From Desulfogranum japonicum DSM 18378 (GTDB taxonomy: Bacteria > Desulfobacterota > Desulfobulbia > Desulfobulbales > Desulfobulbaceae), in assembly GCF_000429945.1 (NCBI RefSeq), contig NZ_AUCV01000056.1:1-35553 (forward strand): a stretch of DNA of 35,553 bases, in the 5' to 3' direction. Shown here one piece after another: positions 503-28,925 of the stretch. The position numbers were made by a program, and so were the translations under genes. How positions within the stretch are numbered: the first letter of the stretch is position 1; the number at the start of each line of letters is the position of its first letter. The notes under the pieces are model-generated. The model was given only the letters and a program-made list of their open reading frames with translations, was not told the DNA's origin and ran no database searches.

Positions 503-588
503 TGTAACCACAAGTGTCACTTGTCACCAATTTATGGTGGTATTCCCTTAACCAAAGGGTGTCTGTCACTCATCCCCGACGATGAGAT

Positions 589-659
589 CGCCTATCGGAG
601 TCTTCGCTTACCTGCAAAAACCGCGCTTGCACAAATCTGAAGCACCTGCGACCAGTTAC
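589..659. repeat. Dispersed intergenic repeat, copy 1 (right half)
   Basis: This 71-bp segment matches 2310-2380 at about 65 of 71 positions by eye, including the block CCTATCGGAGTCTTCGCTTA and the terminal GACCAGTTAC. The left half seen in copy 2 is not recognisable. It lies downstream of the NSS transporter gene. Confidence 0.75.
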
Positions 660-766
660 GACTCATAAACAGTTAAAATATCAATATTGTTAACCCAGCA
701 ATCAGTTACTAAAATTTCTCTTAACTACAAATTTGTTCAAAGAACAACTGGCCTGCTGGTAGCAAT

Positions 767-2232: not shown

Positions 2233-2380
2233 GTAGCTGATCACAAGACTTCACAAAGTCTCCCGCTGGTCGCTTATCTCTTCGCACGATCGCGGTTTCC
2301 CGCATAGATAGCCTATCGGAGTCTTCGCTTACCTGCCAAAACCGCACTTGCACACATCTGAAGCATCTGTGACCAGTTAC
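2233..2380. repeat. MITE-like element, copy 2 (most complete)
   Basis: This 148-bp stretch begins GTAGCTGATCACA (2233-2245) and ends TGTGACCAGTTAC (2368-2380). These ends are inverted repeats matching at 11 of 13 positions. Its right 71 bp match copy 1, and the part from about 2291 onward matches copy 3. It carries no ORF. The combination of small size, terminal inverted repeats and several intergenic copies is typical of a miniature inverted-repeat transposable element. A target duplication was not evident. Confidence 0.65.
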
Positions 2381-3930: not shown

Positions 3931-4006
3931 TATCGTTTCCCACATAGATAGCCTACCGGGGTCTTCGCTGACCTGCGAAAAACAGCGCTTGCCTGTGATC
4001 AGTTAC
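3931..4006. repeat. Dispersed repeat, copy 3, between two dead transposase fragments
   Basis: This segment matches copy 2 from about 2287 onward (TTTCCCACATAGATAGCC, then CGGGGTCTTCGCTGACCTGC) with an internal gap of about 14 nt. It ends TGTGATCAGTTAC, whose reverse complement matches the left end of copy 2 at 12 of 13 positions. The left boundary abuts the IS1182-like fragment and the right boundary abuts the ISNCY fragment. Confidence 0.7.
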
Positions 4007-4649
4007 GGCAGAAGGTATTGTTTTTGTTTGCTTTGCCGCCAGCCTGTGAGGCCTGAAATGGCACAAAGAGCTGCGACCAAGCTGATAGCCTTCCTCATTG
4101 CATCAAAAAGCAGATTAATATCTGTAGGATAATGGACGTTTGTCTCAACTACGAAAGAATCACACCTACCTTTCAGCTCGCCGTTTTCTTCCTCTTTTTT
4201 TTTACGATGTTGTGCCCAACTTCTACAACGACAATATTAATTGCGTTCAGAATATCGGGGGTGAGAAGCGATACATTATCTTTGATGGTCTGTAATTTAT
4301 ATTCATGATCGTCGCCCCAGGAACTGTGCCCGAGCATAAGCCGTATTGTTTTGTGATTATTCGCCATTTCGACAAGACGATCATAATCCCAATTCAAATT
4401 TAACCGAAGTACTCCCAAAACCAATATTCTCCATAGCTCCATTCCGGGACGGCCGTTCTTCTTATCCGTATTAGGCTGGATTCGATGTTCTAATATTTCG
4501 AACACTTTCTGACGAAGATCGGCTGTAGTGTAGATGTATTAAAGCCCCAAAAGCAAGGGTGGTATGTCATCACGAGATTTGAGATCAATTTTGACTTCAG
4601 CGATAGGAGTTTCACCTATTCTTCATTGAGGATGTTTTGTTTGTCTCAT
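4007..4649 (-). pseudogene. ISNCY-family transposase, N-terminal half, broken
   Basis: Translation in two frames rebuilds about the first 214 residues of an ISNCY-type transposase. These include KSRDDIPPLLLGL, YIYTTADLRQKVFEILE, GRPGMELWRILVLGVLRLN, LQTIKDNVSLLTP and, after a shift, GRCDSFVVETNVHYPTDINL. Inactivating changes are a TGA at 4625-4623, a TAA at 4541-4539 (probably from a Gln codon) and a frameshift at a nine-base A run (minus strand; T run 4195-4203). The gene is cut off at 4006 where repeat copy 3 starts. Full-length family members are roughly twice as long. A related fragment covering a later part of the protein lies at the right edge of the window. Confidence 0.85.
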
Positions 4650-7713: not shown

Positions 7714-9255
7714 TTATGGGTGAGGCTTGACGATATTGAGTTTGGCCATGCGGGCCCGTAAAGTACTGCGATTAAGACCGAGGATTTCCGAAGCGCTGTT
7801 TTTACCGCTCACCTTCCAGCCGGTCTGCTCCAGGGTGTGGAGAATATGTCTTCTCTCGACGGCCTTGAGTGTTTCCTGTGCGGAAGAGGCAGCAGGCGTC
7901 TTTTTCCGTAGTTCATCGGCGAGTCGCAGCTGGGAGCCGGGTGAATTGATCACAGCCCGCTCAAGAACATTTTCCAGCTCCCGAATATTGCCGGGCCAGG
8001 AGTAACCCTGTAACACATCAACGACGGCCTTGGATGCCTGGGGAACCCCCCTGCCCATTCGCTTGCAAATTTTCTTGATAAAGAAACCGGCAAGCATGGG
8101 AATGTCATCAAGACGGTCGCGTAGTGGCGGCACGGTGATTGGAAAGACGTTCAAGCGGTACCAGAGATCCTCGCGGAACCCTCCCGTTCGAACCTCGTCT
8201 TCCAGGTTTCGATTGGTGGCGGCAAGAATTCTGGTGTTCACTTTTATGGTCCTGGCGCTCCCGAGTCGTTCAAATTCGCCGTCTTGAATCACTTTCAGTA
8301 GCTTCGCCTGCAAATCGATGGGCAACTCGCCGATCTCATCGAGAAAGATGGTTGCGCCGTCGGCAATTTCAAACCGTCCCAGCTGCCTGGTGTGCGAACC
8401 GGTGAAGGCTCCTTTTTCGTGGCCGAACAGTTCACTCTCGATCAGGTTTGCCGGCAAGGTGGCACAATTGACCTTGATCAGGGTCTTGTTTTTTCGCAGA
8501 CTCAGGCGATGAACGGCGTGGGCGACCAACTCCTTACCAGTGCCGGTTTCTCCCAGAATCAGCACGGTGGTATCGCTTGAGGCAATCTGTTCTATTTTGT
8601 GGAGGACATATTTGATGGCATTGCTTTCTCCGACAATCTTTTCATGATTGTACTTAATCTTGATCTCTTCCTGGAGAAAGGTCCGTTCCGCTTCGAGCTG
8701 ATCTTTCAGCTTTTTAATTTCGTCATAGGCTGCTTCGATTGCATCTTTTTTTCTTTCCGCTTCCTCCTTTGCGGCAATAAGTTCGACGGTGCGTTTTCCG
8801 ACAAGTTCTTCAATTTTCCTCTGATCCTCCGCTTTTTGAGTGACATCTTCGATGGCCAGCAGGATCAACTGGGTCTGCTCCGACCTGCGGTATAGCCGCC
8901 TGGCGTTCAGCAGCATTATTCTATGACCGATGCCCTCAAAGAATTGCTCCACCTCCAGATCATTGAATTCGGATTTTTTCGGCAAAATGTCTTCGAGAAG
9001 TTTCCTCAGCTCGGGAATATCCCACTGACGGTTACCGATCTCGTAGATCAGCCGTCCTTCCGTTTCGGCGGGTTTGACTTCGAAGGTAGTATAAAAGGGA
9101 CGATTGGCTTTTATCACCTTCAACTCGGAATCGAGCACAATCAATGGTTCACGAAGGGAGTCCAGAATGGTGTAGCACACCTTGACGAGCGTCTGCAGGC
9201 TGTACTCTTCGTTTTCTGTAGCCATTATCGAATTTTTCATCGGTGATGCATTCAC
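7714..9255 (-). CDS. PAS-domain sigma54-dependent transcriptional activator, Fis-type HTH
   Basis: This 513-aa bacterial enhancer-binding protein has three parts. An N-terminal PAS-like sensor (about residues 25-140) is followed by a helical linker (140-205), an AAA+ domain and a Fis-type helix-turn-helix (about 465-505, ending [15 protein letters not shown]). The AAA+ domain shows Walker A GETGTGKE (235-242), the sigma54-contact loop GAFTGS (282-287; Ser replaces the usual Ala) and Walker B IFLDEIGE (303-310). There is no receiver domain, so input comes through PAS. The start is uncertain: GTG 9255, ATG 9240 and ATG 9225 are all possible and none has a strong RBS. It follows the kinase and CheB-CheR genes on the same strand. 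Confidence 0.93.
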
Positions 9256-9486: not shown

Positions 9487-12400
9487 TCAGTTTTTTTCGG
9501 CTCTGCTCCGCTCCTGTGTGGCAATAGCGTATATTGTTCCCTCATCATCAAGCAGGGCCGTGGCGGTAATCGTCACCCCCAGGACCGTCCCGTCTTTATG
9601 GAGCCGCTTACTGTCATAGGGCGCGATGCTTTTCGCCATGCTCAGCTCCTGAGCCTTGGCCAACGCCTCGTGGCGTAACTCCCCAGGAATCATATCATGG
9701 ATATTCATTGTCAGTGCTTCGGATCTGGTCCACCCGTATATCCTTTCGGCGCCTGGGTTCCAGCTTATTATACGGCCTTTGAGGTCCTGGATGATCACGG
9801 CATCATCTTCTTCCCGACCAGCTACACTCAGACGAAACAAGGTATTGGTCTGGTGAAGCATTTTTTTGATTTTTTTGGCCTCCGATATGTCGATAAAGGT
9901 GATTACCGCACCTTCAATGACGTTTTCGAGGGTGCGGTAAGGCTGAATACGCAAGGTGTACCACTTGCCGGCTCTAGTATTCACATCAATCTCTCTGGCG
10001 ATCAGGGTAACCAGAACGGTTGTAACATCTGAGACCAGCTGGTCATATTCCACCAGATTGGAGACGATATGGCTGACAGGACGTCCGATATCACTCGGTA
10101 TGAGATGAATGATTTCGGTGGCCGCGGGGGTAAAGCGCAGAATATGCAGGTCATGATCGACGAAGACGGTGGCAATGCCGGTACCGGCGAGAAGGTTGTT
10201 CATGTCGTTGTTGACGCGTGACAGATCGGCGACCTTGGTCTGCAATTCGGTATTGACCGTCGTCAGTTCCTCGTTGATTGACTGCATCTCTTCCTTGGAA
10301 GTCTCCAGCTCTTCGTTGGTGGACTGCAGTTCTTCATTGACGGACTGCATCTCCTCGTTGGTGGACCGCAGTTCCTCGTTGGCGGTTTGCAGATACTCTT
10401 CCTTGGCCCAGAGTTCCTGCCGAAGCGCTGCGATAAGGGCGTTTGCCTTTCTGGTCGCCAAATTATCCTCATCCTTTTCGCCGATATCCGCAGCGGTATC
10501 CTCATCATTTGCATTCCGGCCGGCCATGCCAGAACCTGACGAACGAGTTCTATCTTCAATGACAACCAGGAAAAGAGACACTTCCACGGAGGTGGAGGGC
10601 GCCGCTCCCGGGTCCTGTATTTCAGGACGAGGCGCCAGCGGACAAACACTCAGATTGGCCGGGGTGAATTCGCTGTTGGTTTTGACCAGTATACCGGTCC
10701 GGTGCACCGGCTCTTTGGTCGCGACCGCCTGCCGCAAGGCTGAAACCAGTTCAGCTCGCAATCCTTCCCGGGCCATTTTGAGGATATTATTGACTCCGGT
10801 TTCACCGGGAGTCGGTTCAAGAAACATGCCGGCCCGGCCATGGAGATAGAGGATGTCCCCATGACTGTCGATCAGCGCGCCTATCGGTGCAACCTGGCGC
10901 AGCAGAGCCTGTTCAGTCAGTACGCGCAGCGACATTTTTCCCGGTATGGCAGCAAAGGTTGTCAGGCCTGGCTGCACTGTATGAAACGTTTTGGCGGGAG
11001 ACACGAATCGGCCCAGAATCTGTCGCTGCGGGACGGTGGAATCCTCTTTGCAGGTGTAAATCTTCATTTTCCTGTCAAGGGTTGCAAACAGATCACCATA
11101 TTCACCAACGGTTTCCGAAGTACCCAGGAAGAGATGGCCACCTGGATTGAGAGCATAATGGAAAAGTGGAATAAGCCTTTTTTGCAGCTCAGCGCTCAAA
11201 TATATGAGGAGATTCCGGCAACTGATCAGATCTATTCGAGAAAATGGCGGATCTTTGATGACATCCTGCTCGGAAAAAATCAGCATTTCACGGATCCGTT
11301 TATCGATTCGGTAGAGACTGCTCTCTGCTTCGGAGGTAAAGTACCTGGCCAATCGCTGCGGTGAGATGTCGGTGGCGATACCGGCGGGATAAAGCCCGGC
11401 TCTGGCGGTTTCTATCGCCCGGCTGTCGATATCCGTTGCGAAAACCTGGACCGTAAACTTCCTGCTCAAGGTTTCCATATGCTCGTGGAGAAGAATTGCC
11501 AGCGAATAGGCCTCTTCGCCAGTGGCGCAGCCCATGGACCAGACCCGGATGACGCTTCCACCCGGCTTACCTGAAAAGAGTGCGGGAACAACCTTTTTTT
11601 CCAGCATTGCAAAGGCCTCCGGATCCCTGAAGAAGCTGGTCACGCCGATCAGCAGATCACGAAAAAGGGCTTCAATCTCGGCAGCGTTCTGCTGGAGAAC
11701 GGTGATATATTCGTCGATGGATCCAATCTGGCGGATCGCCTGTCGCCGTTCGATGCGGCGACAAATGGTTTTTGACTTGTATTGGCTGAAATCGTGACCG
11801 GTCTGGTTCCGCAGCAGGACAAAGATTTTTTTTAGACGGCTCTCATCACATGGATCCGCTCCGGCCCCAGGCTGGTATTGGTTATCGAAGGTTTGAGCAA
11901 CATAGGCCAGGAGCTTGGCCGGCATCTCTTCCGGCGCCAATTGGTAATCAACCAGCCCCGTGTCGATGGCGCTGCGAGGCATGCCGTCAAAGTTGGCGGA
12001 CTTGGGGTCCTGAGCCATGACTATACCTCCTTCAGCTTTGACGGCCCGCATACCCTGGATACCGTCGCTGCCGGTACCGGAGAGAATGATGCAAATTGCC
12101 CGACCATGCAGGTCCTGCGCCAACGAGGAAAAGAAAAAATCAATGGGAAAACGGTGGCCCCGAGGAGCCTCAGGCTCGTAAAGCCGGAGTGAGTCGCCGC
12201 ATAAGGCCATATCTTTATTCGGCGGGATGATATAGACATTGTTGACCTCTATCTTCATCCCATCCGTAACCTCGAAGACGTCCATTGGGGTATAGCGCTT
12301 GATCAATTCGGTGAGAATACTCCGGTGATCCGGTGCCAGGTGCTGGACAAGAACAAAGGCCATTCCGGGAGGAGTATCTACCGGCATACCTGAGAAAAAA

Positions 12401-12579
12401 GATTCGAAAGCGGCCAGCCCGCCGGCCGAGGCGCCGATGCCGACAACCGGGAAATCGACGTCTTCCACAGCTTTGGAGCGATTTTGCCTTTTCCCTTCCG
12501 TTTGAGTATGTTTTTTCTTTACCCGGCTGCCGGCTTTCGATACCGTATTGTCGCTGTATTTGCTGTTTCCGCTTGTCAT
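9487..12579 (-). CDS. CheB-CheR fusion with coiled coil and PAS domains
   Basis: This protein of about 1030 aa joins both chemoreceptor-modifying enzymes. Residue numbers are from the longer ATG at 12591. The CheB methylesterase domain (about 48-235) shows GIGASAGG with Ser55, HLAPDH with His84 and GTGSDG with Asp176, giving a full catalytic triad. The CheR methyltransferase part shows the CheR N-terminal helix block (RNQTGHDFSQYKSKTICRR) and the SAM-binding motif GCATGEEAYS. A strongly repetitive heptad helix of NEELxSTNEE type follows, then two PAS domains. No kinase domain is present. The ATG at 12579 is preferred because GGAG lies 6 nt upstream. Such fusions usually act as signalling proteins rather than classical chemotaxis enzymes. 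It lies between the hybrid kinase and the sigma54 activator, co-oriented with both. Confidence 0.95.
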   Translation of the reverse strand: MTSGNSKYSDNTVSKAGSRVKKKHTQTEGKRQNRSKAVEDVDFPVVGIGASAGGLAAFESFFSGMPVDTPPGMAFVLVQHLAPDHRSILTELIKRYTPMDVFEVTDGMKIEVNNVYIIPPNKDMALCGDSLRLYEPEAPRGHRFPIDFFFSSLAQDLHGRAICIILSGTGSDGIQGMRAVKAEGGIVMAQDPKSANFDGMPRSAIDTGLVDYQLAPEEMPAKLLAYVAQTFDNQYQPGAGADPCDESRLKKIFVLLRNQTGHDFSQYKSKTICRRIERRQAIRQIGSIDEYITVLQQNAAEIEALFRDLLIGVTSFFRDPEAFAMLEKKVVPALFSGKPGGSVIRVWSMGCATGEEAYSLAILLHEHMETLSRKFTVQVFATDIDSRAIETARAGLYPAGIATDISPQRLARYFTSEAESSLYRIDKRIREMLIFSEQDVIKDPPFSRIDLISCRNLLIYLSAELQKRLIPLFHYALNPGGHLFLGTSETVGEYGDLFATLDRKMKIYTCKEDSTVPQRQILGRFVSPAKTFHTVQPGLTTFAAIPGKMSLRVLTEQALLRQVAPIGALIDSHGDILYLHGRAGMFLEPTPGETGVNNILKMAREGLRAELVSALRQAVATKEPVHRTGILVKTNSEFTPANLSVCPLAPRPEIQDPGAAPSTSVEVSLFLVVIEDRTRSSGSGMAGRNANDEDTAADIGEKDEDNLATRKANALIAALRQELWAKEEYLQTANEELRSTNEEMQSVNEELQSTNEELETSKEEMQSINEELTTVNTELQTKVADLSRVNNDMNNLLAGTGIATVFVDHDLHILRFTPAATEIIHLIPSDIGRPVSHIVSNLVEYDQLVSDVTTVLVTLIAREIDVNTRAGKWYTLRIQPYRTLENVIEGAVITFIDISEAKKIKKMLHQTNTLFRLSVAGREEDDAVIIQDLKGRIISWNPGAERIYGWTRSEALTMNIHDMIPGELRHEALAKAQELSMAKSIAPYDSKRLHKDGTVLGVTITATALLDDEGTIYAIATQERSRAEKN

Positions 12580-12591
12580 GACGGTCTCCAT

Positions 12592-12849: not shown

Positions 12850-14619
12850 CTACTGCAACTCCCCAAAACCATAGGGGTTTCCTAGAAATGACTGAGGCAA
12901 CGCAACATGATCACCGGCCATGGCCCGGTCCTGGCTATAACCGCTGGAAAGAATAAATACTATGCCAGGATCGAGTCGCCGCAGAGCGGCAAGTGTTTGC
13001 CAGCCATCCATGCCCGGCATGATGAAATCACAGAGGACGCAGTCTATGGTTACAGGGTGTTGCTTGAATATCTCAACGGCCTCTTCACCGTCGGCGGCGA
13101 CGAGGACCTTGCAACCGACACGGTGAAGTGCTGCCTCGGCAATGAGACGAAGTGTCGGTTCGTCATTAACGACCAGAATAGTGGCTTCCTCCGCGCTTCC
13201 ACCAGTGCGGGAAACTCTTTTCTCAGGAAACACGGCAGAGCTGCTCGCCCATTTCTCTCTATAAACAGGAAGAAATACTTTAAAAACACTTCCTTTATCT
13301 TTTTTGCCGACAACCGTGACCCCCCCGTTATGAGAACGGACAATCCCAATAACCAGCGGAAGGCCCAGTCCACGACCGACAAATTTGCTACTGTAAAAAG
13401 GATCGAAGATCCGGTCAATTTCCGTCGCATCGAGACCACAACCGGTATCGGCTACCTCCAGACAAGCGTATACACTTTCACATACCTGCCAATCCACGGG
13501 GAAGCGGTGGGTTTCAGGTATATCCACCGATTTTACTGCTTCTATCCGCACCTCAACCGTACCTTCGCTTCCTCGCTGGCTCTCCCAGGCGTTGGTCACC
13601 AGGTTGTCCACAACCTGCCCGATCTGACCGGCGTTGGCGTTGATGATGAGGCCGTCGGTGGGAAGATCGGCAGCCAGGCTGGTGGTTTTAGGAATGAAAG
13701 GACGAAGTGTCTCCAGAACATCGCGGCAGGTCGCAGCAAGGTCAACAGGTTCATGAGATGAGTTGGTCTGGCCGAGGTAGGTTAGCATGGAGCCGCTCAT
13801 TTCCGCGGCTTTTTTGGCCCCATCTATGGCCGATAGAATAAATTCACGGCTTTCCGTGTCTCTGGGAAGATATTTGACAGCTAGGTCAAGGTTTCCCATG
13901 ACAATGGTGAGTTGATTGTTGAAGTAATGGGCGATGGCCCCGGCCATGCATTCGAGACTTTCAGTCTTCTGCTGTTGTCGGCTTCGGCTTTCCAGGTGTC
14001 GCGCTTCCTCTGCCAACCTCATTCCCCTGTCTATATCGCTCAGCATGATCCAACATGTCGGGGGCCCCGGCCCGTTCTCACCGACTGGAACAGTCTCCAG
14101 GCGGGCCCAGAATGACTGGTGATTATTTCGCAACATTAGCAACTTACAACTCCGCCGCTCATTCGTTTCCAAGATCGCCGCCCGATGATGGTGATAGACA
14201 TCCTGGTCATCGGGAAAAATGAACCTCGTTATTGGCTGGCCAACCACTGTCCCTCCCTCGACTCCCAGAAGGGCGGCTGCGGTCAGGTTCGCCTCGACTA
14301 TCAGCCCCGCTGCATCGATCGTCAAATAGCCCACGGGGGCGAAATTATACAGATTTTTATAGCGATTCCGCGATTCCTCAAGTTCCTCCTGGAATCGTCG
14401 CAACTCCTCGTTTTGAATCTCCAATTCAACCTGGTGAACCCGAAGTTCACGGAGCAGTCGACGTGAACTCTCAAGATCTAATGGTGCAGGCAACAATTTT
14501 TCCCACTCAAAAAGCCTGGCTTCCGCCTGTTGTCGAAGTTGCCGCTCCGGGCTTGTCAACTTTTCCCTGGAGGAAGTGTTGTGATGACCGCTTTGCTTTC
14601 CGTATGGTTTTGTCGGCAT
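12850..14619 (-). CDS. PAS histidine kinase with degenerate C-terminal receiver
   Basis: This 589-aa soluble hybrid kinase has a charged coiled-coil N-terminus (about 15-85), a PAS domain (about 86-200), a phosphoacceptor helix, an HATPase domain and a receiver (about 475-589). The phosphoacceptor block is GAIAHYFNNQLTIVMGNLDL, with Tyr after the His instead of the usual Asp/Glu. The HATPase shows NLVTNAWES (N box), ADTGCGLD and GRGLGLPLVIGIV. The receiver keeps VVNDEP, the phospho-Asp in CDFIMPGMDG and LSSGY. However, the conserved Lys of 'FLxKPY' is Asn (FLGNPY), and an amber codon follows ELQ, removing the last helix. A strong RBS (AAGGAGAGGGC) precedes the ATG. It is first in a same-strand set with CheB-CheR and the sigma54 activator. 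Confidence 0.93.
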   Translation of the reverse strand: MPTKPYGKQSGHHNTSSREKLTSPERQLRQQAEARLFEWEKLLPAPLDLESSRRLLRELRVHQVELEIQNEELRRFQEELEESRNRYKNLYNFAPVGYLTIDAAGLIVEANLTAAALLGVEGGTVVGQPITRFIFPDDQDVYHHHRAAILETNERRSCKLLMLRNNHQSFWARLETVPVGENGPGPPTCWIMLSDIDRGMRLAEEARHLESRSRQQQKTESLECMAGAIAHYFNNQLTIVMGNLDLAVKYLPRDTESREFILSAIDGAKKAAEMSGSMLTYLGQTNSSHEPVDLAATCRDVLETLRPFIPKTTSLAADLPTDGLIINANAGQIGQVVDNLVTNAWESQRGSEGTVEVRIEAVKSVDIPETHRFPVDWQVCESVYACLEVADTGCGLDATEIDRIFDPFYSSKFVGRGLGLPLVIGIVRSHNGGVTVVGKKDKGSVFKVFLPVYREKWASSSAVFPEKRVSRTGGSAEEATILVVNDEPTLRLIAEAALHRVGCKVLVAADGEEAVEIFKQHPVTIDCVLCDFIMPGMDGWQTLAALRRLDPGIVFILSSGYSQDRAMAGDHVALPQSFLGNPYGFGELQ

Positions 14620-19685: not shown

Positions 19686-22600
19686 ATGATTCTCACAACA
19701 CTGATCGGATACTACGCAAATAAGGATGAAGCTCGTCTTGCCTTCCAGGGGCTTGCGGCCAGGGGCCACCGTCGCATCGTTCTGCTGCATAAAGGCACTG
19801 ATGGCAGGACTCGGCAGACGCGTCCTTCTTTTTTCCAGCGTACCCCTTCCCGCCTTTTCGTCGCACTGTTATGCGCCATAGTAACGGCTGCTGTTCCCAA
19901 TGTTTTTCTTTGGTTCAAACCGGATGCGGCAGAAACGTTCCATGGGCTACCGTTTTACCTGAGCGCCTGCACCTTTCTTCTGCTCACCGGTGTCATCTGG
20001 CTGCAGAGCCGGAAAGGCGGAATCGATGCTGGCATCGTGGCTGAGCATCAGGACTGGCTCATACGGGGGGAATCGGTCCTGATACTTCAGGCACCCGTAG
20101 AATCGTTACATTCTTCAGTGGCTTTCCTGCGTCGGAAAAGCGATATCCCCCCTTCCCTCTTCATACTCCACCCAAGACATGAAAGGCGTGCTACAACGCG
20201 CAAAACAGGGGCCCTCTCCGCACCCACACAGATCGTCGAGCATGCTTTCAACTACGCCAGCAAACAAAGAATCGACTCACGACTGCACTGTGGGGCTGAA
20301 CTCATTACCCGGCTGAGAAAGTCAAATAAATGGGTAAAAGCCGCCTGCGCTGATCTGGCGGCGGCAAGACGGCTGGAGCAGAAAGCCACCTTGGCGGCCG
20401 ACTGGATTCTCGACAATGAATACATACTCGAGCGAAACGCACGCGATGTCCTGCGCAACCTGCCTCTGCGATATTTTCGCCAGCTACCCGTGCTGGCCTC
20501 TGATCCGTACAGGGGAATGCCCTATATTTACGGACTGGCCAAAGATCTGGTTTCCCATACCGAGCTATATCTCGACAGGGAAAACATTCTGGCGTTCATC
20601 CGAGCCTATCAGACTGACCATGCACTGACTATTGGAGAGTTATGGGCCGTTCCGCAAATGCTGCGTATCGCCCTGATCGAGAGCATCCAGAATATGGTGA
20701 TCGTCGCCATGGAGGACCTGCGCCAGCGTCAACTGGCTGACTTCTGGGCCAACCGGTTATTTGCGGCCAACCAACAGGACGCCAACACACTCTTTTCAGT
20801 TCTGGCGGAGCTTTCGAGGAAGGAAGCGGTCCCCACTCCCTATTTCAGCATTCAGCTGGCCGGCCTTCTCTACAACGACCCCTCTGCCCTGTCGCCGGTT
20901 CAGGATTGGCTTGAGCGGGTTCATAAAAAGCCGCTGCACGATCTCACACTCCAGGAACAGAAACGACAGACACGCGAGCAGCTGTCCTGCGGCAATGCCT
21001 TCACCAGCCTGCGCCAGCTGACGCTACTTGACTGGCGCGAGATGTTCGAGCTGCTCAGCAAGGTGGAGCTAATTCTGTGCACAGATCCTTCCGGAACCTA
21101 TAGCATGATGGACTTTACAACCCGCGACCGCTGCCGCCAGGCAATTGAGAAATTGGCCAAAAATTCAGCACAGTCCGAGGAGCAGATTGCCAGCCGTGTC
21201 ACAGGCCTGGCTGCGCAGTCGGCAGAGCAGTCTTCAGACGAACTGCGAGGCCATGTTAGTTTCTGGCTGATCGGTGCAGGCAGAGATGAGCTTGCCAGCC
21301 TGCTCTCCTGCAGGGATTCTCTGCGTCACCGGATACTCTCATGGATATATAACCATCACTCTCCGGGGTATCTGCTGACGATAACGGCAAGTCTCATTCT
21401 GTTTACAGGATTCATCGTCGATTCTGCTCTTCCCTACGAACTCTTTTCACCCCGGTTTGTGAGCAGTGGAACTGGCATCCTGTTCGTCCTGCTGGCAACG
21501 ATTACTGCAAGCCAGTTGGCTATCGAGATCGTCAACTATCTCATCACCAGGTTCCTGCCCCCCCGTTACCTGCCGAAAATGGATTTTCAGCAATCGGGTA
21601 TTCCGGATGAGTTTCGGACCCTGGTGGTTGTCCCGGTCATGCTAGTCGATGAGAAATCGATCGATGGTGAAATCGAAAAGCTCGAAATCCGCTATCTGGC
21701 CAACAGGGAAAATAATCTGTCGTTCAGTCTGTTTACCGATTATACTGATTCGGAAACTCCCGGCCGAGACAACGACGCACCACTCCTGCAAAGGGCCGTT
21801 GCAGCAATCGAAGCGCTGAACAATCGTCACGACGACACCACCTTTTTTCTCTTCCACCGCGATCGTCTGTGGAGTGAATCCGAACAGAAATATATCGGCT
21901 GGGAGAGAAAACGAGGAAAACTCGAGGAACTCAACAGCCTCATCGACGGTACACGCAACGAAAGCGCGCCCCCACTGGTCCATGTGGGAGACCCGATGCA
22001 GCTGGCCGACATCCGCTTTATCATTACCCTGGACAGCGACACCCGTCTGCCTCACTCAACCGCCAGGAGAATGGTTGAAACCCTCGCCCATCCTCACAAC
22101 CGGCCTCGCTTCGATACGACAGGAGCCGTCAGGGAAGGCTCCTATACCATCATCCAGCCGCGGGTGAGCCCCACCCTTGAAAGCACAAACCGATCACTGT
22201 TCAGCAGGTTGTTCAGCGATCCTGTGGGCATAGATCCCTATTCAACTGCTATTGCCGACATCTACCAGGACCTGAGCGGCGAAGGTAACTACCACGGCAA
22301 GGGAATATACGATGTCCGTTCTTTCAACCGCCTACTTTCCGGCCGTTTTCCGGCGGAGCGGATCCTCAGCCATGACCTCATCGAAGGGGCCTACGTCCGG
22401 GTAGGACTGGCCACTGACATCGAACTCTTTGATGATTTTCCCTCTAATTATCAGGCATATAGCAACCGGGCCCATCGCTGGGTTCGGGGTGACTGGCAGA
22501 TCGCCAGCTGGATATTCAGCCATGTTCCGGGACCAGCGGGGACGAATCGCAAGAATCCGCTTTCAGCGTTCAATCGCTGGAAGATTCTCGACAATTTGCG

Positions 22601-25600
22601 GCGCAGCCTGGTTCCTGCGGCAACAGTTGGCCTGCTTGCCGTCTCCTGGTTCATCTCCTCAAAAGCGGCCGGCATCGCCACCATGGTAGTACTGCTGCTA
22701 CTTCTTTTTCAGCCGATATCACACTATTTCACCATGGTGACCAGCGGCAAAAGCCTGCGACACGTTTCCCCCGCGAAATTGCTTCACAAGCTACTCCAGG
22801 CTGCAGCAGCCGCAATCCTGCTGCCGAGCCAGGCTGCCGTCCTTCAGGATGCTGCATTTCGGGCCCTCTACCGCTTTCTGGTCTCCAAGCGTAACCTGCT
22901 CGAATGGAAAAGCGGAGACACCGGCATCTCCGCATCTTGGTGGAAATCGTTCCATGCTCTCACCTGCGTTTTTGGCAGCATCGCAAGTGTCGTTGTGGGC
23001 ATCGCCGTCTGGCAGGTCCGCCCCGCAACTCTGGTTTGGGCGATTCCCTGGCTGACGGTGTGGTTCTGCGCACCTCTACTAGGTTTGTACCTCAACCGGG
23101 AAGAGACCAATCGGCAGAAGAAGCCGTTGACCGATGCAGACAATCATTTCCTCAGACTGGTATCCAGGCGCACCTGGCGTTATTTCGCCACCTTTGTAGG
23201 TGAAAAGACCAACTGGCTGCCTCCGGATAATTACCAGGTTGCCCACCAGGACAGTCTTGCCATGCGGACCAGTCCGACCAATATCGGCCTGTGGATGACA
23301 AGTGCCCTGGGCGCCTATGATTCAGGCTACCTCACCATCAACCAGGTTCTCGACAGCCTCTCCAGCACCATGGAAACCATCGACAGGCTGCAGCAGTATC
23401 GGGGCCATTTGCTCAACTGGTACGATATCGACACCCTTACACCGCTTGAGCCACGGTATGTTTCCACCGTTGACAGCGGCAACATGCTCGGCTGCCTCTG
23501 GACCCTCGAACAGGGACTTGACGAAATGACCCAATCGCTCCTTCTCGGTGCGAACACCCTCTCCGGCTGGACCGATACGATTGAACTCCTCGAGGAGGAA
23601 CCGGCAGCGGCTCGCCTCTATGGCGACTTGAAGCGTCTGCTGGCTGAGCATGTCGGCAGACGGCCAGCACTCCCTGCCGAAGTATCTGGTCTTATCCGTC
23701 TGCAACGATTGCTTGAGAATCGTATCGACTCTGCATCTGGAACCTTCATACCGGACGGCTTGGTGGAAGAACAGCGCCAGCAAATGGCGGCCTGGACGCT
23801 CAACCGAAAGCGCTATCTGACCTGGATTGAAATTCTCGCAGAACAATCGGAAGAAGAACTCGCCCTCCTGGGCCCAGGGTTTCTCACAGCGTTGCGTCAT
23901 GATCTGCAGCATGCGCCGTCACTGGACGCCCTTGCCCATGGCCGGGTCGAGACGATGACCCTGCTTGAAAAACTGGACGCAGCATCGACTGATATTCCAC
24001 CCGCGCTCCAGGCATGGCGGGACCGTGCCACGGAGGAATTCGCCAAGGCACAATGGCTGGCCGGAGAAACCCTGAGCCAGCTGCGAAGCCTTGCAGCCAG
24101 CATCGGCAGACTGTCGGCAGGGATGAAAATGGATTTCCTCTACGACAGAGCACGTAAACTGTTCGCCATCGGTTACAACGTCTCTACCAGCTGCCTTGAT
24201 ACTTCGCGGTACGACCTGCTTGCCAGCGAAGCCCGTTTCGGCAGTTTTATCGCCATTGCCCAGGGCGATGTCCCTCTCGAGCACTGGTTCGCCATGGGCC
24301 GTCTCTATGGCGCCCACGGCTTGAAAAGGGTGCTGCTCAGCTGGACGGGCACCATGTTCGAGTATCTGATGCCGCACCTGTTCCAACGTTCCTACCCCCA
24401 TTCGCTCCTCGACAAGGCCGCCTGCGAGGCCGTCTCCATTCAAATCGGCTACGGCAGAAAAAACAACATTCCCTGGGGTATTTCCGAATCGGCCTATGCC
24501 AATCTTGACCTGAATAAAACCTACCAGTACAAAGCGTTCGGCGTGCCCCACCTGAGTCTCAAAGGCGGCTCCGAGGATCAACTGGTCGTGTCGCCCTATG
24601 CAGCCCTGCTGGCGCTGAGCATCTCACCTCGAGAGACGGTAAAAAACATAAAAATGATGGCGGAACTGGGCATATTCGGTGCCTACGGTTTCTTCGAATC
24701 CATGGATTTCAGCCGCCAGGCCCAGCGCCACGGCAGGCGCGGCATAGTTGTCGAGGCCTATATGGCCCATCATCAGGGCATGGCTTTTGTGGCTTTGGTC
24801 AACTTTCTTCACGGACAGCCTTTTTGCCGCCGCTTTCATCGTGATTCACGGGTGCGTGCATTTGAACCGCTGCTTCAGGAACGTATTCCCTCGCATCCAC
24901 CGCTGCACCTGATCCGCACCAACCACAGAGAGCAGGCAATGCTGGGCGAGGACGCCAGTTCAGCCAAGGCCAGCATCTTCACATCGTCCCACGTCCTCTC
25001 CCCAAGGAGTCTGCTCCTCAGCAATGGCGAGTTTTCCTTAATGGTTACCAACAATGGCGGCGGATACAGCCAGTGGAAGGAGTTCGAGCTTAGCCGCTGG
25101 CGATCCGATCAGACCTGTGACACCATGGGAACGTTCTGCTATTTTTACGAGCCCCAAGGCGATCATCTCTGGTCCGCCTCCTATCAGCCGGTAGGCACTG
25201 ATGCCGAGGACTGTTCAGCCGAGTTCACCCTCGACCGTGCTGTCTTCAGGCGTGACCATGAGGATATGCACAGCGAAATGGAGGTGATCGTATCACTGGA
25301 AGACAATGTCGAGATACGCCGCATCACCCTCATCAACCGCTCTTCGCGCGAGCGCACCCTTGACATGACCAGCTACGCGGAGCTCTCCATGGCGCCGCAC
25401 AATGCCGACCGTCAGCATCCTGCCTTCAACAAGCTGTTCATCCAGACGGAGGCTCTTGAAAAGGAGCAGATCCTTCTTGCCAAAAGACGCCTGCGCAGCA
25501 CCACCGATGCGCCCCTGGTGGTCGCCCATCGCTTCCTGGAGGAAGACGGTGGAGATGGTTCTCCCGCTTCCCAGGGCTGGCAGTTCGAAACCGACCGGAG

Positions 25601-28600
25601 CAGGTTTATCGGCCGCGGCCACACCCCTGCCGACCCAATGGGGGCGAGACAGGATCTGGGCAGCAGCGAGGGTTTTGTTCTTGACCCTGTATTATGCATC
25701 AAACAACGCCTCATCCTGAAACCCGGTCAGCGCGTCCGGATCGTGCTGTTGTACGCTGCCGGGGAAACCAGGGAAGAGGTGTTGCTGCTCATGGACAAGT
25801 ACAGCCTCAGCCACGCCGTTGAGCGGGCAATGGATTTTGCCTGGCGATCAGCCCAGCTGCAGCTGCAGGTCTTGCAGATCCAACCGGATGAGGCACGCAG
25901 ATTCCAGCAACTTGCGAGCCACCTGCTGTTTCCCAATCGACTGCTCCGCGCTCCGGCAAGGATTCTGCAGAAAAACCGCAAGGGCCAGTCCGGTCTATGG
26001 CCCTACGGTATTTCCGGAGATCTGCCGCTTGCCCTTGTTGTTATCGGCGAGGTTCGCGACCTCAGCCTGGTCCGCCAGATGCTTCAGGCCCATACCTATT
26101 GGCGGATGCAGGGTTTATCCACCGATCTGCTCATCCTCAATGAGGAGCCTGCCGGATACAGACGGCCGCTCCAGGAGCGACTGGAACAGATGATCCAGGT
26201 GTATGCCCCCGAGGCGGCCTCTGAACGTAAGGGCAGCGTCTACCTCCTCCAGTCTGGACAAATTCCGGAAGAGGACCTGGTACTGCTCAACGCTGCGGCC
26301 GCCGTGGTGCTGGTTGCAAACCGCGGCACTCTGCCGCAACAATTGGCCAGAGCCGTCGAAGTTGTCGAACTCGCAGAAAAAATCGAGAGCAAGTCCCTGC
26401 CGCGGGAGGTTTCCGCAGCACTGCCATTCATGGAACTTCATTATTTCAACAGTCTCGGCGGATTTACCCAGGATGGCTCGGAGTACGCTATTTACCTTGG
26501 CCCGGACATCAATACCCCGGCCCCGTGGGTGAACGTCATGTCCAATGCCAATTTCGGCACCCTGGTCAGTGAGAGTGGTGCGGGTTTCACCTGGTTTGGC
26601 AACAGCCAGCGCAATCGCCTGACCAACTGGTCCAATGACCCGGTTCTCGACCCTGCAAGCGAAGCACTCTATATCCGGGACGAGGAAACAGGCGAATTCT
26701 GGTCGCCGACCGCCGCCCCGATCCGCGAGCAAAATGCCTATCGGGCACGACACGGAGCAGGCTACACCGTTTTCGAACACAACAGCCACGGCATTGAGCA
26801 GGAACTGAGAGTTTTCGTTCCGGTCGATGATGACGACGGGCTGCCAGTCAAACTCCAAAGCCTTCGCCTCATCAACAGCTCACCCAGGTTACGCAGGCTG
26901 TCGCTCACCTACTATGTGGAGCTGACACTTGGCGAAAACCGTGAATCATCGCAGATGCACATCACCACCAATTGGGACGAAAACAGCCATTCCATCATGG
27001 CGAGAAACTATTATCATCCCGATTACCCAGACCGGATAACCTTTGTCTCTCTTTCCCCGCAGGCAGAAAGCCATAGCTGCGACCGCACTGCATTCACTGG
27101 TCGGAACTGTTCAGTTGCCGCACCCGCTGCCATGGAGTCTGTCGAGCTCTCAGGACAGAGCGGGGCCGGACTGGACCCCTGCGCGGCACTACGGGTGACG
27201 GTAGAGCTTGAGCCAGGCGAGGCAAAGCACATAACAACCATGCTCGGTCAATCAGGTTCGGTGGAGGAGACAAATGAGCTGATTCTGCGTTTCCAGAGCA
27301 TGACAGCTGTGACGGAAGCTCTAGAAAAAACCGTATCCTGGTGGAATGCGCTCCTGGGAACAATCGAAGTGCACACCCCTGAACTGTCGGTAAACCTTCT
27401 GGTAAACCGCTGGCTCCAGTATCAGAGTTTAAGCTGCCGCATCTGGGGCCGCTCCGGCTTTTACCAGTCAGGCGGTGCTTTCGGTTTTCGCGACCAGCTC
27501 CAGGATGTAATGGCCTTTCTCCATGTACGGCCGGAAATTGCCCGCCAGCAGATACTCCTTGCAGCCCGACACCAGTTCAAGGAAGGAGATGTACAGCACT
27601 GGTGGCATGAACCTTCCGGGGCCGGGATCCGTTCGCGTATTTCCGACGATCTCCTCTGGCTTCCCCATGTCGTTTCCCGCTATGTTGCAACAACAGGAGA
27701 CCGCGACATCCTCGCGGTTGAAATACCCTTTCTTGAAAGCCCGGAGCTTGCCGCTGACGAACATGAAATCTTCTTGACCCCGACGGTTTCTCTGGAAAGG
27801 GCTTCGCTCTTCGAGCACTGCAGGCGGGCGGTTGAGCACGGCCTCACCCAAGGCCCCATCAACGGCCTGCCGTTAATGGGCACCGGCGACTGGAACGACG
27901 GCATGAATCTGGTTGGTGCCGGCGGCAAGGGTGAAAGCGTCTGGCTGGCCTGGTTCCTCTGCGATGTGCTGATGGGGATGTCGGAATTGGCGGAGCTTGT
28001 AGAAATGGAGGATTTACGTCAGGACTATCTGGAGAAAAGAGAAGAGCTTATCCGGCAAATCGAGAAAAAAGGGTGGGACGGCAACTGGTACCTGCGGGCT
28101 ACCTTCGACGATGGCAGCCCGCTGGGCTCCCACCTCAACCGGGAGGCCAGGATAGACTCCCTGTCGCAGTCATGGGCCTGGCTCTCCGGGGCTGCAGGCC
28201 CGGAACGCGCCGAAGTGGCCCTGGAATCCGCCTGGGAGCACCTGGTTCGGCAGGATGACCGAGTCGCACTGCTATTTACTCCCCCGTTCGACAGCGCCGA
28301 GCCGACTCCTGGATATATCAGGGGCTACCCCCCCGGAGTGCGGGAAAACGGCGGTCAATACACCCATGCCGCTCTCTGGATGGCAATGGCATTGGCCCGT
28401 CAGGGCAATGGCCAGCGAGCGGTGGAGCTACTGCGCCTTCTCAACCCTATAGAGCATACCCGTGACACGAGTGGCGTCTGGCGCTATGACGTCGAACCGT
28501 ATGTCGTCGCAGCCGACGTATACTGGTTGCCGGGGAAAATTGGTCAAGGCGGTTGGACCTGGTATACCGGATCTGCGGCCTGGATGTACCGCGCCTGGGT

Positions 28601-28925
28601 GGAAGAGGTTCTCGGCCTGCAGATAAGAGATAACCGGATGACACTCCGTCCCGTCTTTCCCGACAACTGGCAGGGATTCATGCTCCGCTATCGATACGGG
28701 GAATCTGTGTATGAGATCAACGTGGAAAACCCGCATGCATGCGGCTGCGGGGTTGCGTCAGTGACTCTTGATGGCAAGCCCCAAAATGATGGATTCATTC
28801 TTCTTGAGAAGCATGCCTGCAAACACCATGTCCTTATCACCATGGGTTCCCCTCAACAATGGAACGAGGAAGTCGACCGCCATCACCGGAGTGCCTTGCC
28901 GGAAAGCCACTGTGAGACAAGATAA
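19686..28925 (+). CDS. ndvB: Cyclic beta-1,2-glucan synthase (NdvB/Cgs-like; GT84-GH94)
   Basis: This giant membrane enzyme (3079 aa) would make periplasmic cyclic beta-1,2-glucan from UDP-glucose: initiation, elongation and cyclisation by the GT84 part, and chain-length control by the GH94 phosphorylase part. Membrane segments lie at about 57-77, 89-106, 561-620, 975-1018 and 1088-1137. The GT84 domain (about 630-960) shows TLDSDTRLP with the DxD near 783 and HRWVRGDWQ (RW motif near 931). A glycoamylase-like region includes SESAYANLDLNKTYQYKAFG near 1600. Two GH94-type beta domains begin near 1777 and 2265. The GH94 catalytic region shows GTGDWNDGMN with Asp2738. It is slightly longer than the roughly 2800-2900 aa of rhizobial and Brucella homologues. 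ACGAGG precedes the ATG. It appears intact. Confidence 0.95.
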   Translation: MILTTLIGYYANKDEARLAFQGLAARGHRRIVLLHKGTDGRTRQTRPSFFQRTPSRLFVALLCAIVTAAVPNVFLWFKPDAAETFHGLPFYLSACTFLLLTGVIWLQSRKGGIDAGIVAEHQDWLIRGESVLILQAPVESLHSSVAFLRRKSDIPPSLFILHPRHERRATTRKTGALSAPTQIVEHAFNYASKQRIDSRLHCGAELITRLRKSNKWVKAACADLAAARRLEQKATLAADWILDNEYILERNARDVLRNLPLRYFRQLPVLASDPYRGMPYIYGLAKDLVSHTELYLDRENILAFIRAYQTDHALTIGELWAVPQMLRIALIESIQNMVIVAMEDLRQRQLADFWANRLFAANQQDANTLFSVLAELSRKEAVPTPYFSIQLAGLLYNDPSALSPVQDWLERVHKKPLHDLTLQEQKRQTREQLSCGNAFTSLRQLTLLDWREMFELLSKVELILCTDPSGTYSMMDFTTRDRCRQAIEKLAKNSAQSEEQIASRVTGLAAQSAEQSSDELRGHVSFWLIGAGRDELASLLSCRDSLRHRILSWIYNHHSPGYLLTITASLILFTGFIVDSALPYELFSPRFVSSGTGILFVLLATITASQLAIEIVNYLITRFLPPRYLPKMDFQQSGIPDEFRTLVVVPVMLVDEKSIDGEIEKLEIRYLANRENNLSFSLFTDYTDSETPGRDNDAPLLQRAVAAIEALNNRHDDTTFFLFHRDRLWSESEQKYIGWERKRGKLEELNSLIDGTRNESAPPLVHVGDPMQLADIRFIITLDSDTRLPHSTARRMVETLAHPHNRPRFDTTGAVREGSYTIIQPRVSPTLESTNRSLFSRLFSDPVGIDPYSTAIADIYQDLSGEGNYHGKGIYDVRSFNRLLSGRFPAERILSHDLIEGAYVRVGLATDIELFDDFPSNYQAYSNRAHRWVRGDWQIASWIFSHVPGPAGTNRKNPLSAFNRWKILDNLRRSLVPAATVGLLAVSWFISSKAAGIATMVVLLLLLFQPISHYFTMVTSGKSLRHVSPAKLLHKLLQAAAAAILLPSQAAVLQDAAFRALYRFLVSKRNLLEWKSGDTGISASWWKSFHALTCVFGSIASVVVGIAVWQVRPATLVWAIPWLTVWFCAPLLGLYLNREETNRQKKPLTDADNHFLRLVSRRTWRYFATFVGEKTNWLPPDNYQVAHQDSLAMRTSPTNIGLWMTSALGAYDSGYLTINQVLDSLSSTMETIDRLQQYRGHLLNWYDIDTLTPLEPRYVSTVDSGNMLGCLWTLEQGLDEMTQSLLLGANTLSGWTDTIELLEEEPAAARLYGDLKRLLAEHVGRRPALPAEVSGLIRLQRLLENRIDSASGTFIPDGLVEEQRQQMAAWTLNRKRYLTWIEILAEQSEEELALLGPGFLTALRHDLQHAPSLDALAHGRVETMTLLEKLDAASTDIPPALQAWRDRATEEFAKAQWLAGETLSQLRSLAASIGRLSAGMKMDFLYDRARKLFAIGYNVSTSCLDTSRYDLLASEARFGSFIAIAQGDVPLEHWFAMGRLYGAHGLKRVLLSWTGTMFEYLMPHLFQRSYPHSLLDKAACEAVSIQIGYGRKNNIPWGISESAYANLDLNKTYQYKAFGVPHLSLKGGSEDQLVVSPYAALLALSISPRETVKNIKMMAELGIFGAYGFFESMDFSRQAQRHGRRGIVVEAYMAHHQGMAFVALVNFLHGQPFCRRFHRDSRVRAFEPLLQERIPSHPPLHLIRTNHREQAMLGEDASSAKASIFTSSHVLSPRSLLLSNGEFSLMVTNNGGGYSQWKEFELSRWRSDQTCDTMGTFCYFYEPQGDHLWSASYQPVGTDAEDCSAEFTLDRAVFRRDHEDMHSEMEVIVSLEDNVEIRRITLINRSSRERTLDMTSYAELSMAPHNADRQHPAFNKLFIQTEALEKEQILLAKRRLRSTTDAPLVVAHRFLEEDGGDGSPASQGWQFETDRSRFIGRGHTPADPMGARQDLGSSEGFVLDPVLCIKQRLILKPGQRVRIVLLYAAGETREEVLLLMDKYSLSHAVERAMDFAWRSAQLQLQVLQIQPDEARRFQQLASHLLFPNRLLRAPARILQKNRKGQSGLWPYGISGDLPLALVVIGEVRDLSLVRQMLQAHTYWRMQGLSTDLLILNEEPAGYRRPLQERLEQMIQVYAPEAASERKGSVYLLQSGQIPEEDLVLLNAAAAVVLVANRGTLPQQLARAVEVVELAEKIESKSLPREVSAALPFMELHYFNSLGGFTQDGSEYAIYLGPDINTPAPWVNVMSNANFGTLVSESGAGFTWFGNSQRNRLTNWSNDPVLDPASEALYIRDEETGEFWSPTAAPIREQNAYRARHGAGYTVFEHNSHGIEQELRVFVPVDDDDGLPVKLQSLRLINSSPRLRRLSLTYYVELTLGENRESSQMHITTNWDENSHSIMARNYYHPDYPDRITFVSLSPQAESHSCDRTAFTGRNCSVAAPAAMESVELSGQSGAGLDPCAALRVTVELEPGEAKHITTMLGQSGSVEETNELILRFQSMTAVTEALEKTVSWWNALLGTIEVHTPELSVNLLVNRWLQYQSLSCRIWGRSGFYQSGGAFGFRDQLQDVMAFLHVRPEIARQQILLAARHQFKEGDVQHWWHEPSGAGIRSRISDDLLWLPHVVSRYVATTGDRDILAVEIPFLESPELAADEHEIFLTPTVSLERASLFEHCRRAVEHGLTQGPINGLPLMGTGDWNDGMNLVGAGGKGESVWLAWFLCDVLMGMSELAELVEMEDLRQDYLEKREELIRQIEKKGWDGNWYLRATFDDGSPLGSHLNREARIDSLSQSWAWLSGAAGPERAEVALESAWEHLVRQDDRVALLFTPPFDSAEPTPGYIRGYPPGVRENGGQYTHAALWMAMALARQGNGQRAVELLRLLNPIEHTRDTSGVWRYDVEPYVVAADVYWLPGKIGQGGWTWYTGSAAWMYRAWVEEVLGLQIRDNRMTLRPVFPDNWQGFMLRYRYGESVYEINVENPHACGCGVASVTLDGKPQNDGFILLEKHACKHHVLITMGSPQQWNEEVDRHHRSALPESHCETR

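Follow-up and report, generated by a model that had tools for sequence, protein, structure and literature searches.

What is the 148-bp repeat at positions 2233–2380 of this Desulfogranum japonicum DSM 18378 DNA: a mobile element, a structured intergenic repeat, or a chance pairing of two short sequences? The window (the whole stretch analysed, 35,553 nucleotides) is one contig of the host assembly, and the host genome is 5.80 Mb in size. Copies of the repeat in the host and its relatives, their target duplications and the ends of IS66 elements in the same bacteria point to a non-autonomous DNA transposon that relies in trans on an ISBst12-group-like IS66 transposase and is present in the window as decayed relics. 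We put the probability of this reading at roughly 0.8.

Copies of the repeat in the window

The 148-bp element exists as it was first described: its ends read GTAGCTGATCACA and, with the right end reverse-complemented, GTAACTGGTCACA, and are identical at 11 of 13 positions. Such end pairing is by itself unremarkable, and what matters is the repetition; inverted pairs agreeing at at least 11 of 13 positions at a spacing of 140–156 number 12 in the window and 6 in one shuffled window. In copy 1, the strand carrying the fold conserved in relatives runs from 2380 to 2233, and model R1 aligns the entire copy on the minus strand, weakly (14.6 bits, E 0.18).

The two further partial copies proposed in the preliminary description are real, and only their limits required correction, from 589–659 to 581–709 and from 3931–4006 to approximately 3935–4006 (Table 1). 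Copy 2 is also seen as a 75-nt direct repeat, D2, of 92% identity. All three copies share one reading direction and sit between called genes, in line with the earlier statement that only non-coding sites are hit. Both ends together with a target duplication were found in none of the three, and the window copies are therefore regarded as decayed or truncated.

Table 1. Coordinates of the repeat copies and of other features (window positions unless a locus is named)
Feature	Position	Strand	Basis
Family A copy 1, hairpin part without tail	2233..2380	-	profile match 2233-2384, profile positions 1-154 of 200, E 3.6e-44; 100% self-match in genome search
Inverted-repeat end, hairpin 3' side (right end of the unit in relatives)	2233..2245	+	11/13 positions; family ends
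Inner inverted-repeat end GTAACTGGTCACA, hairpin 5' side	2368..2380	-	2369-2380 is GTAACTGNTCAC, 0 mismatches
Family A copy 2, without hairpin 3' part, with tail and outer end	581..709	-	profile match 581-708, profile positions 71-199, E 2.4e-28
50-bp tail of copy 2	660..709	-	outer end 698-709, inner end 648-659; terminal motif sites, tail consensus
Family A copy 3, truncated and internally deleted	3935..4006	-	profile match 3935-4019, profile positions 64-165, E 1.2e-14
Intact inner end of copy 3	3995..4006	-	0 mismatches to motif
DruA match in IS66 element	L119:587-1486	+	PF14236, E 6.1e-37
DruA match in IS66 element	L121:379-1275	+	PF14236, E 1.8e-35
CheB-CheR-PAS fusion	9487-12591	-	domains
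PAS histidine kinase with receiver	12850-14619	-	domains
Sigma-54 activator	7714-9255	-	domains

Copy number and forms in the host genome

A search of the whole host genome with the element scored 40 matches out of 148 first-look candidates, and 29 of the 40 span query position 14 or lower to 154 or higher, the element itself occupying query positions 9–156. Allowing up to one mismatch, a genome-wide count of the terminal motif GTAACTGNTCAC gives 630 hits, compared with 109 for the reversed control. Profile searches of contigs C1 and C2 (718 kb) detected 41 loci, 20 belonging to the window's family (family A) and 21 to a sister family (family B), which extrapolates to about 330 copies of both families per host genome. 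No sequence similar to the element was found in the plasmid collection.

Terminal inverted repeats are located at the exact ends of the copies, as in MITEs. Family A occurs in forms of about 148–152 bp and about 196–201 bp, and family B in forms of about 110 bp and 156–160 bp, each with additional deleted forms; the unit length in the host, about 150–200 bp, is too short for a transposase gene. Many family A copies run about 50 bp past the right end named in the preliminary description, to another CAGTTAC end.

Smaller arrangements of the same parts also occur. At C1:14629 a tail stands alone as a 60-bp unit and is flanked by an 8/8 duplication, and a unit of about 109 bp consisting of two tails lies at approximately C1:373018–373126, comprising a family B tail, GTAACTGGTTAC and a diverged, inverted second tail. 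A module of about 15–25 bp, GGTAAGCG...GACTC(CG), recurs at particular positions within many hairpins from several genera and lengthens the core there; its carriers include the element at 2233–2380, other family A copies and loci L068, L073, L084, L151 and L338. The module occurs in 48 distinct contexts, a few of the 30 listed being apparently outside hairpins, and is possibly a nested mini-element.

Target duplications and the extent of the mobile unit

Target duplications were sought in 93 host copies, 74 of which have at least one end pair, at a threshold of at least 7 of 8 matching positions. Flanking 8-bp duplications were present in exact register in 24 of the 74 (11 of the 24 being perfect), compared with 0–2 of 73–74 in shifted registers; signals at 7 and 9 bp are mainly the same register viewed through a different word length. 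A chance inverted repeat is excluded by the copy number together with these duplications. Among the 24 duplication-flanked copies, 18 use the outer end and 5 the inner end, and one 142-bp case is unassigned. The original assignment of the ends to the named repeats thus holds for 5 of the 24, whereas most duplications lie at the outer end about 50 bp further on; copies ending elsewhere, which the preliminary description had named as a refuting outcome, were in part found. As a rule, the 148-bp form is an incomplete version of the mobile unit.

In relatives, the complete unit begins with an outer end (GTAAC..TCAC.GGG-like), followed by a tail of mostly 49–50 bp and then by a self-complementary hairpin of 107–108 nt, the 3' foot of which is the other end of the unit; 8-bp target duplications flank the whole, which measures 156–158 bp in the four relatives compared. 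This build is unusual in its asymmetric combination of tail and hairpin and in its three copies of the end motif per unit.

A pattern scan of named genomes, among which the host's own record may be missing, yielded 23 loci, all in Desulfobulbus, Desulfobulbaceae or Deltaproteobacteria records, including the isolate Desulfobulbus alkaliphilus DSM 24258 and, by isolate names, dolphin-mouth MAGs. The core is 106–108 bp in 15 of the 23, and inserts lengthen most of the others. Duplications of at least 7/8 are present at the outer end in 13 of the 23 loci (10 of the 13 at 49–51 bp), and no locus has one at the inner end. In five related genomes studied closely (59 usable of 60 copies), 49 of 59 copies have outer-end duplications, 45 of the 49 at 49–50 bp, and the controls gave 0 of 59 for the inner end and 2 of 59 for the wrong side; one of the five, G262, had no duplication among its 4 copies. 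A wider, partly overlapping set gave outer-end duplications in 36 of 64 copies, 23 of the 36 at 49–50 bp, with both controls at 0.

Of the 23 pattern loci, 16 were used for an alignment (A1), including L142 with its core of 116 bp; L132, L137, L139, L146, L149, L150 and L151 (cores of 113–136 bp) were left out for inserts or, in L132, an unclear right end. With a covariance model based on 16 cores, matches were obtained in 37 of 73 genomes of the host's family, and in 11 of 14 genera. In a phylum-wide draw the model matches 12 of 395 genomes, 8 of the 12 being in the host's order.

IS66 elements with matching ends

IS66 proteins were identified by Pfam (PF03050). In the host, the 3' end of an IS66-family transposase gene is present at two contig ends with different flanks, and the terminus of this IS lies 19 bp past the stop codon, in CTGTGATCAGTTAC. 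The host assembly yielded no complete IS66 and no left end of the host's IS, and matches to the IS66 protein TnpB (PF05717) numbered 0 in the host. The host locus L128 (G000:C33:54500-58000) contains a decayed IS66 3' end and, a few hundred bases away, a family A copy.

Complete elements are found in relatives. Loci L115, L116 and L118 are 1546 bp long; each encodes a single IS66 transposase of 481 aa and has ends GTAACTAATCACAGGG, from which one end of L116 deviates by one base; L119 and L120 are 2371 bp and carry a second gene. These five, of seven IS66 elements with defined ends, are flanked by 8/8 duplications; L121 and L122, whose ends are also defined and well fitting, have no duplication. 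Six of 29 further IS66 loci have ends with 8/8 duplications, namely L384–L386 (about 1.6 kb), with GTAACTACTCAGCC ends, and L373–L375 (about 2.4 kb), with classic GTAAGCGC ends. In L119 and L121, a gene matching DruA, of the Druantia defence system (PF14236), precedes the transposase gene (Table 1).

ISDge4, an IS66 element of the ISBst12 group, is described with ends GTGACTACTCAGCA and GTAACTGCTCAGCA; it contains a single transposase ORF, and its 8-bp repeat is CCTCGATG (PMC12898284). By that description, the unit shares with ISDge4 the terminal motif GTAAC..NTCA.. and the 8-bp duplication, whereas it differs in its length of about 157–200 bp, its lack of a transposase, its hairpin body and its second, inner end. 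IS66 elements with ends of the GTAAC..NTCA.. type measure 1546–1608 bp in the same bacteria as the unit.

The outer end of the G007 unit is identical to the L122 IS end over 17/17 nt and to the host IS66 right end over 16/16, and the family A end is identical to each of these two over 14/14. Units of G042, G071 and G016 reach at best 13–14/16 to IS66 ends, and unit ends agree with the classic IS66 element L375 at 5–8/16 only. Comparison with six IS66 elements and the host IS fragment revealed no similarity extending past about 17 bp into the element (best E 0.12); since the likeness stops there, the unit cannot be explained simply as an internally deleted version of any compared IS, and we infer that it is IS66-mobilised and not a deletion derivative.

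Hairpin and IS66 gene occur together in 26 of 73 genomes of the host's family, with 11 having the hairpin only, 8 IS66 only and 28 neither (Fisher p 5e-5, a value that ignores the relatedness of the genomes). The draft assemblies of the 11 hairpin-bearing genomes without an IS66 match may have lost multi-copy IS. The duplication-rich genomes G007 and G071 have only weak IS66 matches (1.4e-6 and 5.3e-5), and G058 and G063 contain an L115-type IS with no hairpin match.

The preliminary description had suggested that the MITE-like repeat may be a non-autonomous family, and this holds, because multiple copies, defined ends, 8-bp target duplications and an IS with matching ends were all found. Given these ends and the shared 8-bp duplications, the element is probably moved in trans by an IS66 transposase like that of the ISBst12 group.

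The hairpin and its strand bias

Each of eight cores folds into one hairpin, the z-scores ranging from −9.3 to −14.2; window copy 1 folds modestly, with z −1.55 on the strand of the conserved fold and −2.31 on the opposite strand. Recurrent features of the hairpin are a GA/GA internal loop and a bulged T. In a 16-sequence alignment, 94.8% of the cells pair and 21 of 48 pairs are changed on both sides. The covariation score is 0.387, compared with 0.197 (sd 0.013) for shuffled and at most 0.102 for slid alignments, the slid control being somewhat flattering because the structure was derived from one of the aligned sequences.

Mismatches between species are strand-biased. The 16-sequence alignment contains 119 G-T and 7 A-C mismatches, which are not independent events because several of the sequences come from one genome; G-T is seen at 31 pairs and A-C at 7, always at pairs that also show G-T. 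In the pattern-chosen set, the unconstrained inner columns (29 onward) contain 57 G-T and 6 A-C. Among host copies, single changes from paired consensus sites are 76 G-T to 65 A-C in family A and 11 to 14 in family B. In four relatives, BLAST-chosen copies (48 used) show single changes of 43 G-T and 24 A-C. Copies from five genomes chosen by the covariance model show 82 and 6, a ratio that is inflated and unusable alone because the copies were chosen on pairing score and subfamilies were mixed; all cells of a wider model-chosen set give 342 and 67. The bias is thus smaller in BLAST-chosen than in covariance-model-chosen copies.

The fold looks as if it is kept between lineages and lost within resident copies, suggesting that selection acts on what multiplies and not on each copy. 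The two possibilities originally posed, a MITE or a structured intergenic repeat, are not mutually exclusive: the target duplications mark a mobile element, and the conserved hairpin belongs to the same unit.

It is conceivable, at odds clearly below even, that multiplication of the element involves a folded single strand, either RNA or one defined strand of the DNA in single-stranded form. Pointing to this are the hairpin spanning nearly the whole core, with its GA/GA loop and bulged T, and the excess of G-T over A-C on one strand. The tail lies 5' of the hairpin on the folding strand (in 49 of 59 copies, with 2 of 59 for the opposite side, and in 36 of 64, with 0). Resident copies would then decay nearly neutrally.

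Genomic context and competing explanations

The conserved pairing (94.8%, both partners having changed in 21 of 48 pairs) and the 119:7 excess of G-T over A-C between species would also be expected of a structured RNA that benefits the host in cis, as a stabiliser of mRNA 3' ends, an RNase III site or a terminator, with spread by an IS being secondary. Such an RNA would suit the placement of the host copies too, only 1 of 93 of which overlaps a called gene (coding fraction 0.75–0.82); the corresponding count by a rough gene caller is 14 of 124 in a set drawn mainly from relatives. Orientation to genes, however, is inconsistent, with 25 sense and 17 antisense copies between co-directional genes in the host and 18 and 37 in the mostly-relatives set, which rules out a cis-acting mRNA element of fixed orientation. 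Changes within the host, moreover, are nearly unbiased (76:65 in family A, 11:14 in family B). A promoter in the tail was rejected, as the best sigma-70-like score among 76 distinct tails, 7.57, compares with 7.32 on the opposite strand and 7.35 after shuffling. So was a known Rfam RNA: the window has 0 matches at gathering score, and six loci gave only a non-credible mir-254 match (E 0.36), far below threshold. A host function is not favoured, because gene orientation is inconsistent and the tails are not promoter-like, and the structured RNA is quite improbable as the primary explanation.

The transposase itself might belong to a different family that by chance shares the GTAAC ends and the 8-bp duplication. 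That would fit the absence of a good IS66 match from several genomes rich in hairpins, the occurrence of the IS but no hairpin in G058 and G063, and the confinement of IS66 homology to the ends; it is nevertheless unlikely, as two of the five units match IS66 ends exactly over 14–17 nt, the duplication length and the bacteria are the same, and hairpin and IS66 genes co-occur, the transposase search having covered IS66. Passive spread of a palindromic repeat by recombination or replication slippage, without transposition, would account for an intergenic, palindromic, high-copy sequence of REP/ERIC-like character. This is scarcely credible, being refuted by the 8-bp target duplications, many of them perfect, by the exact ends and by the many unrelated sites.

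In the preferred reading of a transposon mobilised by IS66, a transposase of the ISBst12-group type would bind the ends of the unit and insert it in trans, and insertion would prefer intergenic DNA, or the unit would survive there. The inner end at the 5' foot of the hairpin might serve as an occasional alternative end, giving rise to the 148-bp short form of the window, and the three window copies would be decayed relics. Selection on the mobile lineage, not on individual resident copies, would keep the hairpin. Counting against this reading are the limited extent of the IS66 matches, the hairpin-bearing genomes with no IS66 match, the hairpin-free G058 and G063, the host assembly with no complete IS66, and the lack of duplications at L121, L122 and the window copies. 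So does the strand bias, which simple transposition of double-stranded DNA would not lead one to expect.

Comparison with known elements

Chunjie is a bacterial MITE of Geobacter uraniireducens (PMC10969869, a review). Like Chunjie, the present element is short and non-coding, with terminal inverted repeats, direct repeats, a mostly intergenic location and size variants; it is set apart from Chunjie, as described in the review, by three end motifs about 50 bp apart, by the compensatory changes in its hairpin and by the spread of its relatives over many genera. The Cardinium MITE (PMC9769881) and MITEPsy1 and MITEPsy2 (PMC3189936), as described there, are likewise non-autonomous and IS-derived. 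The Cardinium MITE is compared with ISCca4 in a figure legend, and the IS66 element listed for that genome is ISCca16 (PMC9769881); MITEPsy1 is linked to ISPsy2, with 4-nt duplications, and MITEPsy2 to the Tn3-family ISPsy30 (PMC3189936).

Among the matches listed in open-licence literature, there was no report of IS66-type MITEs in Desulfobulbaceae. REP and ERIC-type repeats are intergenic palindromes of high copy number. The present element resembles them in these respects and differs in its 8-bp target duplications and IS66-type ends. The name of the motif Desulfotalea-1 presumably indicates the same bacterial group as that of the host. Desulfotalea-1 is tabulated as a candidate RNA motif of Proteobacteria, with status '?' and no Rfam number (PMC2864571). 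It might be an earlier sighting of the hairpin.

Implications for IS66 transposition

The mechanism of IS66 transposition has been called insufficiently characterised (PMC12898284). For IS66 there is now a large family of short elements, clearly delimited and flanked by clean 8-bp duplications, and its units of about 157 bp could act as minimal substrates defining the requirements of the transposase. The strand-biased, compensating hairpin poses a testable question, namely whether the folded strand is important in transposition; if so, this would be a DDE-type mobile element whose success hinges on a strand-specific nucleic-acid fold. Repeats of this kind in the intergenic DNA of many sulfate reducers can also mislead annotation, RNA discovery and assembly.

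Other features of the window

A gene at 19686–28925 (+) encodes a 3079-aa protein with GH94 and glucoamylase-type domains, which we take to resemble cyclic beta-1,2-glucan synthase. Genes for a CheB-CheR-PAS fusion, a PAS histidine kinase with a receiver domain and a sigma-54 activator are consecutive in the window (Table 1).
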